Below are positions 6,367 to 13,337 of a stretch of DNA of 64,000 nucleotides, in pieces (the first letter of the stretch is position 1; each line of letters starts with the position of its first letter). The position numbers and the translations under genes are program-made. Source of the DNA: Salinicoccus sp. Bachu38. GTDB taxonomy: Bacteria > Bacillota > Bacilli > Staphylococcales > Salinicoccaceae. The stretch is from positions 992,001 through 1,056,000 of the forward strand of contig NZ_CP138333.2 in assembly GCF_038561955.2 (NCBI RefSeq), written 5' to 3'. The notes under the pieces were generated by a model that saw only the letters and a program-made list of their open reading frames with translations, was not told where the DNA came from and did not search any database.

Positions 6367-7113
6367 TTGAAAGTCATCGATCAGAGTATTCGGGGGGATT
6401 ACAGGGATCTCAACGAAGATGTTACAGGTATTTTCCAGAATGGCACGGGGCAGACGCTGATGCTCGTATCGGATGGCATGGGTGGCCACCGGTACGGGGA
6501 TGTCGCAAGCCGGTTTGTACATGACGAGATAGGGGCGGCATGGAAAAATGAAAACTTGCTGAATGTTGAAGATGGTGTGGAATTCCTGCGCCATCTGGTG
6601 ATGGACGTCAATAGGAAGATGTTCGACTACCAACAGGAAAATCCGGAATACCAGGGCATGGGTACGACGCTCGTGCTGGCAGCTGTGATCGAAGAGACAA
6701 TCATCATTCTCAACGTAGGCGATTCAAGGGCCTATGCCATGAATGACCGCATGATCGAACAGGTGACGAAGGACCACTCCTTCGTCAATATGCTGGTTGA
6801 TGCGGGGGAGATCACCGAAGCCGAGGCCAAGGTGCATCCGAAGCGCAATATCATCACAAAGGCGATGGGCACCGACCGTCTGATCCAGGCGGACGTCTTC
6901 AGGCTGAGGAACAGGCAGTACGACTATCTGCTGCTTGCTTCCGATGGGCTGACGGACGACCCCGAGGACAGTGAACTGCACGCCATTATCACCCGGGGCG
7001 GGCGGACACTTGAAGAGAAGGCTTCGCAGCTGGTGGACCAGGCGTTGAAAAGCGGATCCACCGACAATATCAGCCTCGTTCTGGCCGATCTGAAAGTGAG
7101 TGAAGGGGATTGA
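6367..7113 (+). CDS. stp: PP2C-family serine/threonine phosphatase (Stp/PrpC)
   Basis: Removes phosphate from Ser/Thr of PrkC and its substrates. At 248 aa it carries the PP2C metal-binding signature SDGMGGH around D36-G37, then GMGTT, GDSRAY, and the late SDGLTD and GSTDNISL motifs. The start is TTG at 6367, with a purine-rich GGGGGAG site about 7 bases upstream. Its last codons overlap the TTG start of the kinase gene by four bases, so phosphatase and kinase are made together. This is the standard pair in Gram-positive bacteria. Confidence 0.95.
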   Translation: MKVIDQSIRGDYRDLNEDVTGIFQNGTGQTLMLVSDGMGGHRYGDVASRFVHDEIGAAWKNENLLNVEDGVEFLRHLVMDVNRKMFDYQQENPEYQGMGTTLVLAAVIEETIIILNVGDSRAYAMNDRMIEQVTKDHSFVNMLVDAGEITEAEAKVHPKRNIITKAMGTDRLIQADVFRLRNRQYDYLLLASDGLTDDPEDSELHAIITRGGRTLEEKASQLVDQALKSGSTDNISLVLADLKVSEGD

Positions 7114-9059
7114 TCGGCCGGATCGTCTCCGATCGCTATGAAGTGATGAAGTATCTGGGCGGCGGAATGAGTTCCGTCTATCTGGCCCGGGACATCATCC
7201 TGGATCGGGAAGTGGTCGTAAAGCTGATCAAAGTGGACCATCATAATCGTGAAAAGTCGAAGGCGCGCTTCCAGCGTGAAGTGGAAAGCACCATCCACCT
7301 TGCCCATCCGAACATCGTCAGTGTACTGGATGTCGACGAATCCGAGGAATACCATCTGCTGGTGACGGAAGTCGTCCATGGACCGACGCTCAAGGAGTTC
7401 ATCCGGGACAATCATCCGGTCGCAGTCGAGGAAGCCATCAGGATCAGTGAAATGACGCTGAGGGGCATCAGGCATGCACACAATGCCGGAATCATCCACA
7501 GGGACATAAAGCCGCAGAACATACTTATGAATGAAGCGCAGCAGATCAAAATCACCGATTTCGGCATCGCCAAAGCGCTCAGCGACACGAAGATGACGGA
7601 AACCAACCAGGTGATGGGATCCGTCCAGTACATCTCCCCGGAACAGGCCAAGGGACAGAAGACGGACGAGCGGACGGATATATACTCATTCGGCATCGTC
7701 CTCTATGAGCTTCTTACAGGGACGCTGCCATTCGATGGAGAGACGGCTGTGTCGGTCGCCCTGAAGCACATATCGGAACCCCTGCCGGAAATCTCGCATC
7801 ATCGGCAGATTCCCGAGGATCTCGCCCATATCGTCTACAGGTGTACAAAGAAGGATCCATATGACCGCTATCGCCAGGTGGATGAGATCCTCCATGACCT
7901 GAACGATTTCAAGGAGGGGCGGACTATAGGCAAAGTGCCTGAAGGGAAAGATGAGGAGAAGACGGCCGGGACCGCCGCGGCCGTACCCGCTGCTTCCGAT
8001 GTGGACGATGACGTGGAAGCGGAGCCCCGCAGAAAAAAGCGGCGTGCACTTTTGTGGACGGTTCCGTTGTTCCTGATCATGGCTGCCCTTCTGATGGCCG
8101 GATTCATGCTGTGGCAGGGCAATAATACGGTGATGATGCCGGACATGCAGGAGATGACCATGGAGGAGGCGGAGCCGCTGCTCGAGGAGAACGGACTGGT
8201 CCTTGGAGATGTCACCGAGGAATACAGCAGTACCTTTGAAGCCGACAGGATCATTGAAACATCACCGAAGGCCGGCATCGAGATGGAGAAGGGATCGACA
8301 GTGGATTTTGTTGTCAGCATGGGCGAAGAACCATACGTGATGGAGGATTTCACCGGTGAACAGTACAACAGTGTGAGGGGCTCGATCGATGCCATCGGGC
8401 TCAGTTCGGTGGAGATTGATGAAATCTATGATGATTCTGAACCGGGAACCATCCTATCGCAGTCCATCGAGGCTGGAGATGAGGTGGATCCGGCGGAGGA
8501 AGCCCTGAGGCTCGAGATTTCACAGGGACTTGAGACTGTGGAAATACAGGACTACATGGGCCAGCCCTACGAGACAGCGGAAAGCGCACTCACTGCCCAA
8601 GGGTTTAATGTCGAAGTGATACAGGAGTCCTACAGCAGTGAAGTGGAGAGCGGCCATGTCATCAGCCAGGATCCGAGCTACGGCAATTTCGTACCGGGGT
8701 CTACAATCCGCATGATCGTCTCCCTCGGTGAAGAGCCACCGGATGAAAAGCAGTTTGCCAAAGAGATCACCATACCTTATGAGCCGGAAGCGGATTCCGA
8801 AGAGGAGCCGACCGGGGAAGGAAGTGGGGATGGGGCGGAAGACGAAGGCAGCGAAGAGGAAGAGGAAGCCGAGGCTAAAACTGTGGAAGTCTACGTCGAT
8901 GACAAGGACCATTCTATCGATGAGGTATTTGATACTCTGGAGATTACAGAGGATACCGAGTATACGCTCAATCTCATCATCCAGGAAGGCGGGACGGCTT
9001 CCTACCGCATTGAAGTCGACGGGGAAACCGTGCGTGAAGAAGAGATTCCATATGAGTAA
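7110..9059 (+). CDS. prkC: PASTA-domain serine/threonine kinase (PrkC/PknB/Stk1)
   Basis: A membrane kinase that senses muropeptides or lipid II and controls wall growth and dormancy exit. It has 649 residues and a TTG start overlapping stp. The cytoplasmic kinase domain covers about 1-270: glycine loop LGGGMSSVYLA, lysine K38, HRD at 130-132, DFG at 150-152. A basic stretch (RRKKRR) precedes one membrane helix, about 313-335. Outside are three PASTA repeats (about 339-406, 407-474, 475-541), a very acidic linker (about 558-590) and a small C-terminal domain resembling the Ig-like end of staphylococcal PknB. In relatives the next gene is rsgA; here an inserted block follows. Confidence 0.96.
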   Translation: MIGRIVSDRYEVMKYLGGGMSSVYLARDIILDREVVVKLIKVDHHNREKSKARFQREVESTIHLAHPNIVSVLDVDESEEYHLLVTEVVHGPTLKEFIRDNHPVAVEEAIRISEMTLRGIRHAHNAGIIHRDIKPQNILMNEAQQIKITDFGIAKALSDTKMTETNQVMGSVQYISPEQAKGQKTDERTDIYSFGIVLYELLTGTLPFDGETAVSVALKHISEPLPEISHHRQIPEDLAHIVYRCTKKDPYDRYRQVDEILHDLNDFKEGRTIGKVPEGKDEEKTAGTAAAVPAASDVDDDVEAEPRRKKRRALLWTVPLFLIMAALLMAGFMLWQGNNTVMMPDMQEMTMEEAEPLLEENGLVLGDVTEEYSSTFEADRIIETSPKAGIEMEKGSTVDFVVSMGEEPYVMEDFTGEQYNSVRGSIDAIGLSSVEIDEIYDDSEPGTILSQSIEAGDEVDPAEEALRLEISQGLETVEIQDYMGQPYETAESALTAQGFNVEVIQESYSSEVESGHVISQDPSYGNFVPGSTIRMIVSLGEEPPDEKQFAKEITIPYEPEADSEEEPTGEGSGDGAEDEGSEEEEEAEAKTVEVYVDDKDHSIDEVFDTLEITEDTEYTLNLIIQEGGTASYRIEVDGETVREEEIPYE

Positions 9060-9062
9060 TTA

Positions 9063-9092
9063 TTGGCATATATGCAATGATTTATATATAAT
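9063..9092 (+). promoter_or_regulatory. Promoter of the oleT-like gene
   Basis: TTGGCA (9063-9068), an 18-base spacer and a perfect TATAAT (9087-9092) form a strong sigma-A promoter 33 bases before the P450 start. The gene therefore does not depend on read-through from prkC. A perfect 10-bp palindrome, GCATATATGC (9066-9075), overlaps the -35 element and could be an operator. Confidence 0.75.
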
Positions 9093-9124
9093 GAGATAGG
9101 AATACTGAAATTGGAGGAAAATTT

Positions 9125-10396
9125 ATGAGCACAATCAAGAAGCACAAGGGTCTCGATAACACTCTGAAGGTCATGAAAGAGGGCTATCTCTATACAACGA
9201 ACCAAAGAAGGCGCCTTGGATCAGAAAACATCTTTGAAACAAGGGTGCTTGGCGGAAAACGCGCTGTCATCATCAGCGGCAAAAAAGCTGCCGAATTATT
9301 TTATGACAATGACAAGACGGAACGTTCGGGGACGCTACCAAAACGTCTGGTGAACACACTGTTTGGGAAAGGCGCCATCCATACGACGACAGGGAAGAAG
9401 CACGTCGACAGAAAAGCGCTCTTCATGTCCCTGATGACGGAAGGCAACCTGAAGCATCTCAGGGAACTGACGCGCAATCACTGGTATATGAATACCCACA
9501 GGATGGAACAGATGGACCAGATCAACATCTACAGGGAATCCATCATCCTATTGACCAAAGTCGGCACTAAATGGGCAGGTGTGCAGGCACCGGAAGAGAA
9601 AATCGAAGAAATCGCCACTGATATGGACATCATGATCGACTCCTTCAAAGGACTGGGTACTGCCTACAAAGGCTATAAAGCTTCTGTAGCTGCACGCCGC
9701 CGTGTTGAGGACTGGCTCGAAGACCAGATCATCCAGACGCGGAAAGGGAAAATATTCCCTCCGGAAGGGACTGCACTCTACGAGTTTGCCCATTGGGAAG
9801 ACTACAAAGGCAATCCGATGGATTCCAGACTCTGTGCAATCGACCTCATGAATACATTCCGTCCACTGATCGCAATCAACCGTTTCGTGTCATTCGGTCT
9901 GCTTGCCATGCATGAACATCCAATTTCAAAAGAGAAAATCAAAAATGAACCGGACTATGCCTACATGTTCTCCCAGGAAGTCAGACGCTTCTATCCATTC
10001 GTCCCGTTCCTCCCTGGAAAGGCCAAAACGGATATCCAGTTTGAGGGCCATGAAATCGAGAAGGACACGATGCTGGTTCTGGACATCTACGGTACAATGC
10101 ACCGGGATGACGTTTTTGAAAATGCAGATGAGTTCTATCCGGAACGCTTCCGCGACTGGGATGGCAGTCCATTCGACCTCATTCCACAAGGTGGCGGGGA
10201 CTATTATACGAACCACCGCTGTGCAGGCGAGTGGATGACCATCATCATCATGGAAGAGACGATGAAATACTTCGCCGACAGAATCACCTATGATGTGCCT
10301 GAACAGGATCTTACAGTGGATCTCAACAGCATCCCGGGATATATCAAGAGCGGATTCGTCATCGAGAATGTCCAGGAGAACGTCGACCGCGGATAG
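9125..10396 (+). CDS. oleT: CYP152-family P450 peroxygenase, OleT-like fatty acid decarboxylase
   Basis: A heme-thiolate enzyme of the CYP152 family, which uses hydrogen peroxide to oxidise free fatty acids. The 423-residue sequence matches, by recall, Jeotgalicoccus OleT nearly end to end with one extra residue near position 34. Heme-ligand cysteine is C366 (NHRCAGEW). R246, which holds the substrate carboxylate, matches OleT R245. H86 matches OleT H85, where hydroxylating relatives such as BioI-unrelated P450 BSbeta have Gln; F80 matches F79. This pattern favours decarboxylation to 1-alkenes over hydroxylation, although OleT does both. It has its own promoter and a GGAGG site, and a terminator follows. 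Its codon use resembles that of highly expressed genes in this window. Olefin production itself is inferred. Confidence 0.93.
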   Translation: MSTIKKHKGLDNTLKVMKEGYLYTTNQRRRLGSENIFETRVLGGKRAVIISGKKAAELFYDNDKTERSGTLPKRLVNTLFGKGAIHTTTGKKHVDRKALFMSLMTEGNLKHLRELTRNHWYMNTHRMEQMDQINIYRESIILLTKVGTKWAGVQAPEEKIEEIATDMDIMIDSFKGLGTAYKGYKASVAARRRVEDWLEDQIIQTRKGKIFPPEGTALYEFAHWEDYKGNPMDSRLCAIDLMNTFRPLIAINRFVSFGLLAMHEHPISKEKIKNEPDYAYMFSQEVRRFYPFVPFLPGKAKTDIQFEGHEIEKDTMLVLDIYGTMHRDDVFENADEFYPERFRDWDGSPFDLIPQGGGDYYTNHRCAGEWMTIIIMEETMKYFADRITYDVPEQDLTVDLNSIPGYIKSGFVIENVQENVDRG

Positions 10397-10410
10397 TCAT
10401 AATCAGAATG

Positions 10411-10445
10411 AAAACCTTCCACAGCCTGGCTGTGGAAGGTTTTTT
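10411..10445. terminator. Terminator between the oleT-like gene and the minus-strand gene
   Basis: AACCTTCCACAG and its exact complement CTGTGGAAGGTT enclose a five-base loop, with six T on the plus side and four on the minus side. It probably ends both converging transcripts. Confidence 0.9.
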
Positions 10446-10462
10446 GATGCATGAAATGAAGA

Positions 10463-11236
10463 TCATGCCCCCGGCGGGGTATATTTGAAGCGCTTGGTGC
10501 TGTCGGCGGCCACGGAGACTTCGAAACCCGGAACGGGGGTCTGGTCCAGCCGGTTGATGACACTCTGCAGGACGCCGACACGGAAGCGATCCTGATCGGG
10601 ATCGTGCAGTTCCGGTACGGCTCCAGCGAGTGCAGTGAGCAGCGCAGAAAAGGTGTATTCATCTCCCGGAACCATCACTTCCGGAATGTTCCGCCTCACT
10701 TTTTCCACGATCGGCTGCAGATTGCCGCTTTCCTGGCTGCCCGGGATGTAGAAATACCTTTTATTCTCAATGACGGTCTGGTTGAAATTCGTTTTGGGGT
10801 CAAGTTCCAGCTGTTTAACGGCACCTTCCAGTACAGCAGTCCGGTCCTTCTTGTCCGATGCATCGAACAGTTCGGGGATGACCGTCTTCAGGAGTGCGAA
10901 CAGCTCGCTGAAAGTGTAATAGCGTCCCGGCTCCATCATCGTCGCCAGTTCGGTGATCACCTTGTCCCTTATGCTGAAGTAGCGTTCCTCACCCTCATAC
11001 TCCCCATATTGTATGTCCTGCATGAATATGGAACGGAAGATGGAGTTGAAGAGCGGGGACGACTCGACCCAGGCGATCACCCGGCTGCCGCTGTTGAGTC
11101 CCCGGACGAACCAGTCCTTGACGTGGGCATTCCACATGTACTCGTATACTTTTGCGATAAAGAAGTCGATCAGCTTGGCTCCAAGGTACGCAATCATGCC
11201 CAGAAAGAATATGAGCAGGGGATTCGAAATTGTCAC
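10463..11236 (-). CDS. Membrane-anchored protein of unknown function with two tandem repeat domains
   Basis: I do not recognise this 257-residue protein. One hydrophobic helix (about residues 5-28) at the N terminus should anchor it. Residues 91-166 and 177-256 are two copies of one domain at an exact offset of 87 residues. Shared positions include PG (103-104 / 190-191), YTFS (107-110 / 194-197), PEL (121-123 / 208-210), D125/D212, VL (135-136 / 222-223), L143/L230 and F151/F238. The alternating helix-like pattern suggests a small winged-helix-type fold, but that is a guess. The start is GTG at 11236 with GGAGG 9 bases upstream; an out-of-frame ATG lies closer to the GGAGG. It converges on the oleT-like gene and is divergent from the chelatase gene. 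Confidence 0.8.
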   Translation of the reverse strand: MTISNPLLIFFLGMIAYLGAKLIDFFIAKVYEYMWNAHVKDWFVRGLNSGSRVIAWVESSPLFNSIFRSIFMQDIQYGEYEGEERYFSIRDKVITELATMMEPGRYYTFSELFALLKTVIPELFDASDKKDRTAVLEGAVKQLELDPKTNFNQTVIENKRYFYIPGSQESGNLQPIVEKVRRNIPEVMVPGDEYTFSALLTALAGAVPELHDPDQDRFRVGVLQSVINRLDQTPVPGFEVSVAADSTKRFKYTPPGA

Positions 11237-11304: not shown

Positions 11305-11313
11305 TGCTATAAT
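11305..11313 (+). promoter_or_regulatory. Extended -10 promoter of the chelatase gene
   Basis: TGCTATAAT is a perfect extended -10 element. No good -35 lies at 17 bases, which is tolerated with an extended -10. The start site would fall near 11320, just before the ribosome binding site, so the 5' leader would be very short. Confidence 0.6.
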
Positions 11314-11332
11314 GCAGTTGAGGAGGGATGGA

Positions 11333-12031
11333 ATGGCACACGATGTCATCGTCATGCATGGTTCAAGGCAAGAGGAGCGCAACGCGGTGCTGGCCGGCCG
11401 TCTTGAGGCACTGCTCGGCGCACGCAGGAATTACAGTGTAGCATTCATAGAAAGCGGTGAACGCAGCATCTGCCGGGTGGTCGGCAGGCTGGCAAGGGAA
11501 GGGGAGCGCGACTTCAACATCATACCGGTCCTCTTTTTCTCGGCCTCGCACTATTCCCGTGACATACCGGAGGCACTCCAGCATCTGGAAGCGGAATATG
11601 GGAATATGCGCTGGACTGTCGCCCCTCCCATGGGCACCCATCATCTGATGGTGCGGTTTGTGGAAAGGCGGGTGGCGGAGACTGGGGTGGAAGGTGGCAC
11701 AGTCATCGTGATGGCGCATGGTAACGCCCGCTATCCGCAGGCGGACCGTGAGTTGGAGCGGCTTGTGTCACAGCTTGATATCGGCATTCCGATTCATCCG
11801 GCAACCCTCTATGGCGAGCTGGCCGCAGAAGGCCTGCCGGAGCGGCTGGACAAGGAGAAGGATTTCATCATTGTTCCAATCGCCCTGGAAGATGGTTTTT
11901 TGACCGGAAAGATGAAGGACGCGATTCTGGCGGTTCTGCCGGAGGGTTCCACAACTTTCGCACCATCCGTCAATTTCGATCCCGTACTGGAGGATATCAT
12001 CCTGGAGCATATGAAGTCCGGGAAGGGATAG
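11333..12031 (+). CDS. CbiX/SirB-family chelatase-like protein
   Basis: Resembles the two-domain sirohydrochlorin chelatases, which insert Fe or Co into a tetrapyrrole. In 232 residues the N-terminal half has both family histidines: H9 in MHGSRQ and H73 in SASHYSRDIP. The C-terminal half repeats the fold with MAHGN but has LEDGFLTGKM where a second histidine motif would be, so only the first half should be active. I chose ATG 11333 because AGGAGG ends 6 bases before it; the upstream in-frame ATG 11312 lies inside the -10 promoter element. No other siroheme or cobalamin genes are nearby, so its metal and substrate are unknown. Confidence 0.75.
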   Translation: MAHDVIVMHGSRQEERNAVLAGRLEALLGARRNYSVAFIESGERSICRVVGRLAREGERDFNIIPVLFFSASHYSRDIPEALQHLEAEYGNMRWTVAPPMGTHHLMVRFVERRVAETGVEGGTVIVMAHGNARYPQADRELERLVSQLDIGIPIHPATLYGELAAEGLPERLDKEKDFIIVPIALEDGFLTGKMKDAILAVLPEGSTTFAPSVNFDPVLEDIILEHMKSGKG

Positions 12032-12470: not shown

Positions 12471-13337
12471 ATGCTAAAAGGTAGGATTACAAAAGCGCTC
12501 AGCGGTTTCTATTATGTGGAATCGGAGGGGGCGCTCTATGAAACAAGAGCCCGCGGGCTGTTCAGGAAAACGAAGGAATCACCGTTGGTGGGGGACATCG
12601 TCACTTTCCAGGTTGAAAATGAAGATGAGGGATATATCGGGGAGATACATGAGCGTAAAAATGCACTCATGCGGCCGCCGGTCGCCAATATCGATCAGGT
12701 GCTGATCACGATGAGCATGAAATCTCCCGAGTTCAGCTACTATCTTCTCGACCGTTTCCTTGCCTATGCCGAAGCACATGACATCGAACCGGTCATCGTC
12801 ATCACGAAGACGGATCTTCTGGAAGATGAAGCATTTCTGAAAGAGATTGAAGCAGTCTACCGGCCCATATATGACATCCATTTTACGGACCGGTACCACA
12901 TCAATGAAGACCTGCAGGGAATATTCAAGGACAAGATCAGTGTCCTGGCAGGGCAGTCCGGCGTTGGCAAGTCCACGCTGCTGAATACGCTCGTACCGGA
13001 ACTTGAACTGAATACTGCCGAAATATCCAATGCACTGAACCGGGGCAAGCATACGACGCGGCATGTCGAGCTTGTGGAGATTGCAGGCGGTCTGATTGCA
13101 GACACCCCCGGTTTCAGCACGATAGAATTCAGTGAACTCGACAAATATAACCTGAAGTTCTGCTTCCCGGACTTCAACCATTTCAGTGAAGCGTGCAAAT
13201 TCAGGGAGTGCCAGCACATCAACGAGCCGAAATGCGGCGTGAAGCAGGCGGTGGCCGATGGCAGGCTTGCGGCCAGCCGTCATGAGAGCTACCTGTCCAT
13301 CTATCAGGAAATCGAAAACAGAAAGGCGAGGTATTGA
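12471..13337 (+). CDS. rsgA: Ribosome small subunit-dependent GTPase RsgA (YloQ)
   Basis: A circularly permuted GTPase that checks the decoding centre of the 30S subunit late in assembly. In 288 residues: an OB-fold at about 1-65, then the G4 motif TKTD (112-115) ahead of the P loop GQSGVGKST (161-169) and DTPG, which is the permuted order. The C-terminal zinc finger has C-x4-C-x-H-x5-C (KFRECQHINEPKCG region). GGGGTGAG precedes the ATG. It is followed at once by rpe and thiN. Confidence 0.96.
   Translation: MLKGRITKALSGFYYVESEGALYETRARGLFRKTKESPLVGDIVTFQVENEDEGYIGEIHERKNALMRPPVANIDQVLITMSMKSPEFSYYLLDRFLAYAEAHDIEPVIVITKTDLLEDEAFLKEIEAVYRPIYDIHFTDRYHINEDLQGIFKDKISVLAGQSGVGKSTLLNTLVPELELNTAEISNALNRGKHTTRHVELVEIAGGLIADTPGFSTIEFSELDKYNLKFCFPDFNHFSEACKFRECQHINEPKCGVKQAVADGRLAASRHESYLSIYQEIENRKARY

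Follow-up and report, generated by a model that had tools for sequence, protein, structure and literature searches.

A predicted OleT-type fatty acid decarboxylase gene at a fixed site behind prkC in Salinicoccus sp. Bachu38 and its family

The gene oleT of Salinicoccus sp. Bachu38 (9125..10396, + strand; an ORF with an ATG start, 423 aa) is predicted to encode a CYP152L-type fatty acid decarboxylase P450, and comparison with related genomes gives high confidence that it is a CYP152L OleT orthologue with its own promoter and a terminator-like site, passed on by vertical descent and belonging to the core gene set of its family, at a fixed site behind prkC. The protein is very likely a decarboxylase that makes 1-alkenes, and it is plausible, judging from sequence, that the organism makes terminal alkenes. 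The window, that is, the whole stretch of DNA that was analysed, is 64,000 nucleotides long and belongs to a 2.62-Mb genome in a single contig. The enzyme is a further CYP152L of an already known OleT type and is ordinary for its group; it is the genomic pattern, a fixed locus with family-wide retention, that appears to be new.

The window protein was matched to OleTJE (PDB 4l40) over residues 1-422 versus 1-421 with 753 bits, and a MAFFT alignment placed F79, H85, I170, R245, P246 and C365 of OleTJE at positions 80, 86, 171, 246, 247 and 366 of the window protein. Based on this alignment and on the tree described below, the key residues are Cys366 as heme ligand, Arg246/Pro247 as the carboxylate-binding pair, His86, Ile171 and Phe80. 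A sequence-only reading of this DNA had equated Phe80, His86, Arg246 and Cys366 with Phe79, His85, Arg245 and Cys365 of OleTJE, and all four pairings were exact; the near end-to-end match that it described also held, but the constant offset did not, as the offset is zero before a one-residue gap near positions 32-33 and one after it. Membership of the CYP152 family was indicated by R246, P247 and C366, by the Pfam p450 score (63.2 bits against a cut-off of 22.8) and by the PDB matches; according to a review, an Arg-Pro pair replaces the usual acid-alcohol pair of P450s in CYP152 enzymes. The score against the CypC equivalog model (NCBIfam NF053744) was 489.2 bits and did not reach the curated cut-off of 600.

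Phe79, Arg245, P246 and Cys365 (OleTJE numbering) are identical in BSbeta (CYP152A1), CYP152K6, CYP152N1 and the second CYP152 of this genome, and it is His85, and in part Ile170, that sets the OleT clade apart from these proteins. All 68 rows of the OleT clade carry F79, H85, R245, P246 and C365; position 170 is Ile in 63 of them and Val in 5. Gln85 was found in 13/13 paralogue rows as well as in BSbeta, K6 and N1. The window protein has both His85 and Ile170 (H86, I171), though His85 also occurs outside the OleT clade and Val170 within it. The earlier proposal that this histidine marks alkene formation was correct in that BSbeta has Gln at the position, but the residue is a weak marker alone, being dispensable in OleTJE and found outside the OleT clade. 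The H85Q variant of OleTJE is reported still to favour alkenes, so His85 is not necessary (PMC5377825); CYP-MP is reported to make mostly beta-hydroxy acid and little alkene, with His85 judged not to be the sole factor, and substitutions at His85 and Ile170 raised decarboxylation in CYP-Aa162 and BSbeta (PMC5588734). Given H85Q, CYP-MP and the occurrence of His85 outside the OleT clade, His86 was rejected as proof of alkene formation. The F-G loop of the window protein, GTAY-KGYKAS, is of the OleT type, as in OleTJE and OleTLA, and loops of this type are 3-4 residues longer than those of BSbeta, K6, N1 and the paralogue (3 against the references, 3-4 in the wider alignment); the F-G region is reported to guide selectivity (PMC13049924).

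An ML tree of 88 rows (99 assembled, 11 duplicates removed) placed the window protein in a 68-row OleT clade with support of 100/100, together with OleTJE and the proteins of Lacicoccus alkaliphilus, L. qingdaonensis and Nosocomiicoccus massiliensis, while BSbeta, K6, N1 and a 13-row Gln85 paralogue clade fell outside it. The tree was rooted at the midpoint and does not include SPalpha and CLA; L026, L041, L044 (partial or with N), L085, and the duplicate loci L045-L075, L083 and L084 were kept out. Identity of the window protein was 97.9% to the protein of Salinicoccus luteus DSM 17002, the nearest named relative, 81.3% to the L. alkaliphilus protein (L009, letter-for-letter OleTLA, PDB 9JQM), 80.9% to the L. 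qingdaonensis protein (L010, from the source species of OleTSQ and matched by species), 75.5% to OleTJE, 71.1% to the N. massiliensis protein (L027, from the source species of OleTNS and likewise matched by species), 68.9% to PDB 9rxh, 40.6% to BSbeta and 36.2% to its own paralogue. A tree of CYP152 enzymes had been proposed as a check together with the sequence-only reading, and placement in a hydroxylase-only clade was not found in it; the OleT-type assignment is supported by this position among characterised decarboxylases, not by the residues cited earlier. BSbeta and CYP152K6 belong to the same CYP152 family and have Phe79 and the Arg, Pro and Cys residues in common with the window protein, but differ from it in their identity of about 41%, Gln85, a shorter F-G loop and a position outside the OleT clade. 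A BSbeta-like hydroxylase misread as OleT through His86 is very improbable: His85 is not diagnostic by itself, yet such a misreading is contradicted by the clade, by the F-G loop and by 71-81% identity to decarboxylases or to proteins of their source species. Three second P450s of the Lacicoccus group (L125, L126 and L127, in genomes G012, G013 and G011) carry His85 with Leu79 and Val170 and are 41-43% identical to the window protein; they lie beside but outside the OleT clade, on a branch that is long, as is that of the OleT clade, so that the joining of the two may be false.

Among known systems, OleTLA (L. alkaliphilus, 9JQM) and OleTSQ (CYP152L8), the latter from L. qingdaonensis, formerly placed in Salinicoccus, agree with the window gene in their catalytic residues, in the F-G loop and in the genomic locus. 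OleTJE (CYP152L1, Jeotgalicoccus sp. ATCC 8456) has the same key residues, and the locus is the same in the Jeotgalicoccus genomes compared. The substrate pocket is different, as positions 46/176/317/402 (OleTJE numbering) are A/L/V/I in the window protein and I/I/A/L in OleTLA and OleTSQ, and relative to OleTJE the window protein has Ala for Phe46 and Val for Ala317. Among 42 aligned sequences the A46/L176/V317/I402 combination is common only to S. luteus, S. hispanicus and S. albus, and it does not occur in OleTJE, the OleTLA/OleTSQ proteins, the N. massiliensis protein or 9rxh. By our own mapping these four sites are those mutated in OleTSA, so the chain-length preference of the window protein may differ from that of characterised OleTs. 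At these sites 9rxh and Mammaliicoccus lentus have the residues that are reported for OleTSA ("Staphylococcus aureus"), and 9rxh adjoins a Mammaliicoccus-group row in the tree; the gene attributed to S. aureus as OleTSA may thus be of Mammaliicoccus type. OleTLA and OleTNS are published OleT decarboxylases (PMC12284513; PMC13049924), and the OleT of Salinicoccus qingdaonensis was published in 2019 with Salinicoccus named as source genus (PMC6452516).

Because the window protein is bracketed by characterised OleT enzymes, we infer an H2O2-driven oxidative decarboxylation. By analogy with the characterised orthologues and from general knowledge, a free fatty acid would bind with its carboxylate on Arg246, H2O2 would convert the Cys366-ligated heme to Compound I, and abstraction of the C-beta hydrogen with loss of CO2 would yield the (n-1) terminal alkene, with beta- and alpha-hydroxy acids expected as minor products. 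OleTJH, OleTSQ and OleTSA are reported to give 84-93% 1-tridecene among the products from C14 acid, the value for OleTSQ with myristic acid being 91% (PMC6452516). In the literature searched, neither an assay of the window protein nor accumulation of 1-alkenes by Salinicoccus was found. The enzyme could instead serve in the cell mainly to hydroxylate natural long or branched acids, with alkenes as a by-product, and the A/L/V/I pocket, which lies outside the characterised enzymes compared, would leave room for this, as would the report that OleTJE, OleTJH, OleTSQ and OleTSA favoured hydroxylation with a C20 acid (PMC6452516). However, the same source describes OleTJE, OleTJH and OleTSQ, and less strongly OleTSA, as decarboxylase-dominant with C12-C14 acids, 1-nonadecene was the sole significant product reported from a C20 acid with OleTJE H85Q and F79A (PMC5377825), and Jeotgalicoccus is a reported producer of 18-methyl-1-nonadecene (PMC5818669); we consider a mainly hydroxylating role improbable and retain decarboxylation to 1-alkenes as the predicted function.

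The gene order at the locus is rsmB-rlmN-prpC-prkC-oleT-...-rsgA-rpe, and the earlier description of a housekeeping locus was right, with rsmB-rlmN-prpC-prkC upstream of oleT and rsgA-rpe downstream; the names rsmB, rlmN, rsgA and rpe are presumptive. A PP2C phosphatase gene, prpC (6367..7113, +), and the PASTA-domain Ser/Thr kinase gene prkC (7110..9059, +) were assigned by domain match, and prkC, also by synteny, is the constant upstream neighbour of oleT; rsgA (12471..13337, +; synteny) forms the downstream boundary of the oleT interval. A 257-aa ORF (10463-11236, -) lies between oleT and rsgA; it matched no Pfam family, and among 42 named loci it was seen in S. luteus alone. A CbiX-like gene that evolves fast (11312-12031, +) lies in the same interval and was found, among these loci, in S. 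luteus and also in S. hispanicus and S. cyprini.

An oleT orthologue was present in 33/33 genomes of the family (f1), with a partial match of 311 residues in G010. Of the 157 genomes of the order, 74 gave a match of some kind and 71 carried the OleT type (at least 55% identity; G010 and G115 were matched over part of their length), the remaining three matches being one of 35%, one broken and one very weak. The OleT type occurred in the single f2 genome and in none of the 15 f3 genomes (two of these are only 66-72% complete), and in f4 it was found in genera g10 (9/9), g11 (6/6), g12 (8/8) and g13 (1/1) and in 13/84 genomes of g14 (Staphylococcus). A class sample of 398 genomes gave 38 matches at 1e-100 or better, 16 within the order and 22 outside it at 39-46% identity.

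The position of the gene was shared as well. On the same contig and strand as oleT, prkC was found in 68/71 carriers at 1977-4727 bp start to start (about 2.0-2.4 kb in the own family), with the exceptions of G029 and G063 (other contig) and G014 (not among the matches listed), and rsgA was found downstream in 67/71 carriers, 110-6501 bp away, with the exceptions of G010 and G058 (other contig), G065 (not among the matches listed) and G067 (other strand, far away). When all three genes were on one contig, oleT lay between prkC and rsgA in 64/65 carriers. A 288-aa ORF separates prkC from oleT in Macrococcus epidermidis, so intervening genes are possible outside the family. Within the DNA compared for the 42 named loci, which count two pieces of one S. 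sediminis genome, prkC was upstream in 40 and rsgA downstream in 35. In 68/71 f4 genomes lacking oleT, prkC and rsgA share a contig and strand at a median of 2303 bp start to start (61/68 below 3 kb), and this short interval fits an emptied site. Most simply, oleT has long occupied this site by vertical inheritance and disappeared from most Staphylococcus; repeated gain in separate lineages would be a less simple alternative. Recent acquisition into the housekeeping locus was rejected, since the site is common across the order and, among the matches at 1e-100 or better in the class sample, the 22 outside the order reach only 39-46% identity.

Purifying selection acts on oleT with strong constraint. 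Its dN/dS relative to S. luteus was 0.034, compared to 0.014 for rlmN, 0.020 for a DUF554 gene, 0.049 for prpC, 0.051 for rsgA, 0.121 for rpe, 0.124 for rsmB, 0.143 for prkC and 0.338 for the CbiX-like ORF; only the S. luteus values were relied on, and dS was high or undefined in several other pairs. An intein was considered for the S. massiliensis orthologue (L044:5989-7836), which has a 612-aa open frame, and was rejected: what mimics an insertion in this record is a long in-frame stretch of N, which represents a gap or masking.

Between the prkC stop and oleT, sequence scanning and recurrence in the family identified a putative sigma-A-type promoter, TTGGCA-18-TATAAT (9063..9092, +), composed of a -35 element at 9063-9068, an 18-nt spacer and a -10 element at 9087-9092, followed by a ribosome-binding site, GGAGG (9113..9117, +), read from the sequence 7 nt before the ATG. 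This was the sole sigma-70-type site found in a scan of 8900-10600, where the count was not above that of shuffled sequences (1 found versus a mean of 1.8); the site and its hexamers nevertheless recur across the family. In a comparison of the window with 28 family loci (L026 was omitted as a duplicate species), the pattern was matched in 26/29 loci with an invariant TTGG in those 26, and the other three, read by eye, each have one altered base in one hexamer. This comparison indicates that oleT has its own predicted promoter, conserved across the family. A terminator-like stem-loop of 15 pairs (10411..10443; no strand assigned) lies downstream. The scan gave it solely on the - strand; when the sequence is read on both strands, it is a probable terminator of oleT and of the convergent ORF alike. 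Codon adaptation ranked oleT 6th among 40 window genes, which were hand-picked from ORF lists (70 ORFs of at least 200 aa, some of them not genes), with 20 ORFs from the ribosomal-protein region as the reference. Good expression had been proposed from the perfect -10, the GGAGG and codon use, and as a prediction this is supported by the family-conserved promoter and the codon rank; oleT is probably well expressed.

GGGTAT after a GTTAA-like motif or GATTAA, ending 31-34 nt before the oleT start, was found in Macrococcoides and S. massiliensis (L085, L090, L119-L122), and these sites are a possible, statistically weak, sigma-B promoter. Scanning with an assumed sigma-B consensus gave a match with a shuffle fraction of at most 0.05, uncorrected, in 9/39 loci; several of the nine are mutually related, three have the match just 2-4 nt from the start codon, and the signal was absent in all 6 family loci tested. 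Sigma-B control of oleT was rejected, being suggestive in a few genera outside the own family only. These results bear on the possibility that the chemistry is the same but was selected for removal of toxic free fatty acids, with use of H2O2, and not for the alkene. The substrates are a free acid and H2O2, and a stress role would agree with the sigma-B-like matches upstream of some oleT orthologues in Macrococcoides and S. massiliensis; however, that signal is weak, the family instead has a conserved sigma-A-type promoter, and the gene is absent from 71/84 Staphylococcus-group genomes. We regard selection for detoxification as possible but doubtful.

The genome encodes a second CYP152 outside the window (G000:C1:2192302-2193549, - strand; L124:8300-9550), with Gln at the His85 position and CYP152K6 (6fyj) as best PDB match. 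Unlike oleT, it is patchy in the family: it has a stop codon in G002 and G018 and is fragmented in G009, while oleT is intact in these Jeotgalicoccus- and Nosocomiicoccus-group genomes. The Gln85-type gene lies directly upstream of, and on the same strand as, genes that we take to be csoR- and copA-like, and among eight genus loci csoR was found in 6/8 and a palindrome resembling a CsoR box, by an assumed consensus, in 6/8. Control of this paralogue by a copper operon was unsupported, as the palindrome lies just after the paralogue stop and before csoR, not upstream.

The presence of oleT in 33/33 family genomes, its fixed prkC-rsgA site, the purifying selection and the conserved promoter make alkene synthesis look like an ancestral core trait. 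In a limited search of the literature that covered few subscription journals, neither the fixed prkC-oleT-rsgA location nor the family-wide retention was found. That alkenes are ancestral, retained and envelope-active in Salinicoccaceae, Macrococcus and Mammaliicoccus, with the oleT site tied to envelope sensing by prpC-prkC, is a speculative and rather unlikely extension, and a functional tie between oleT and PrkC is a positional hint; if true, these groups would form, with Staphylococcus mostly without oleT, a natural experiment on the purpose of bacterial alkenes. The enzyme adds to a group mined for biofuel a predicted decarboxylase with a pocket combination unlike that of the characterised members compared. 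Its distribution matters more: a supposed biotechnology curiosity is present in all 33 family genomes examined, even those of 1.4-1.6 Mb, and the single locus and strong constraint would make the purpose of the alkenes testable by deletion and by comparing species with and without oleT.
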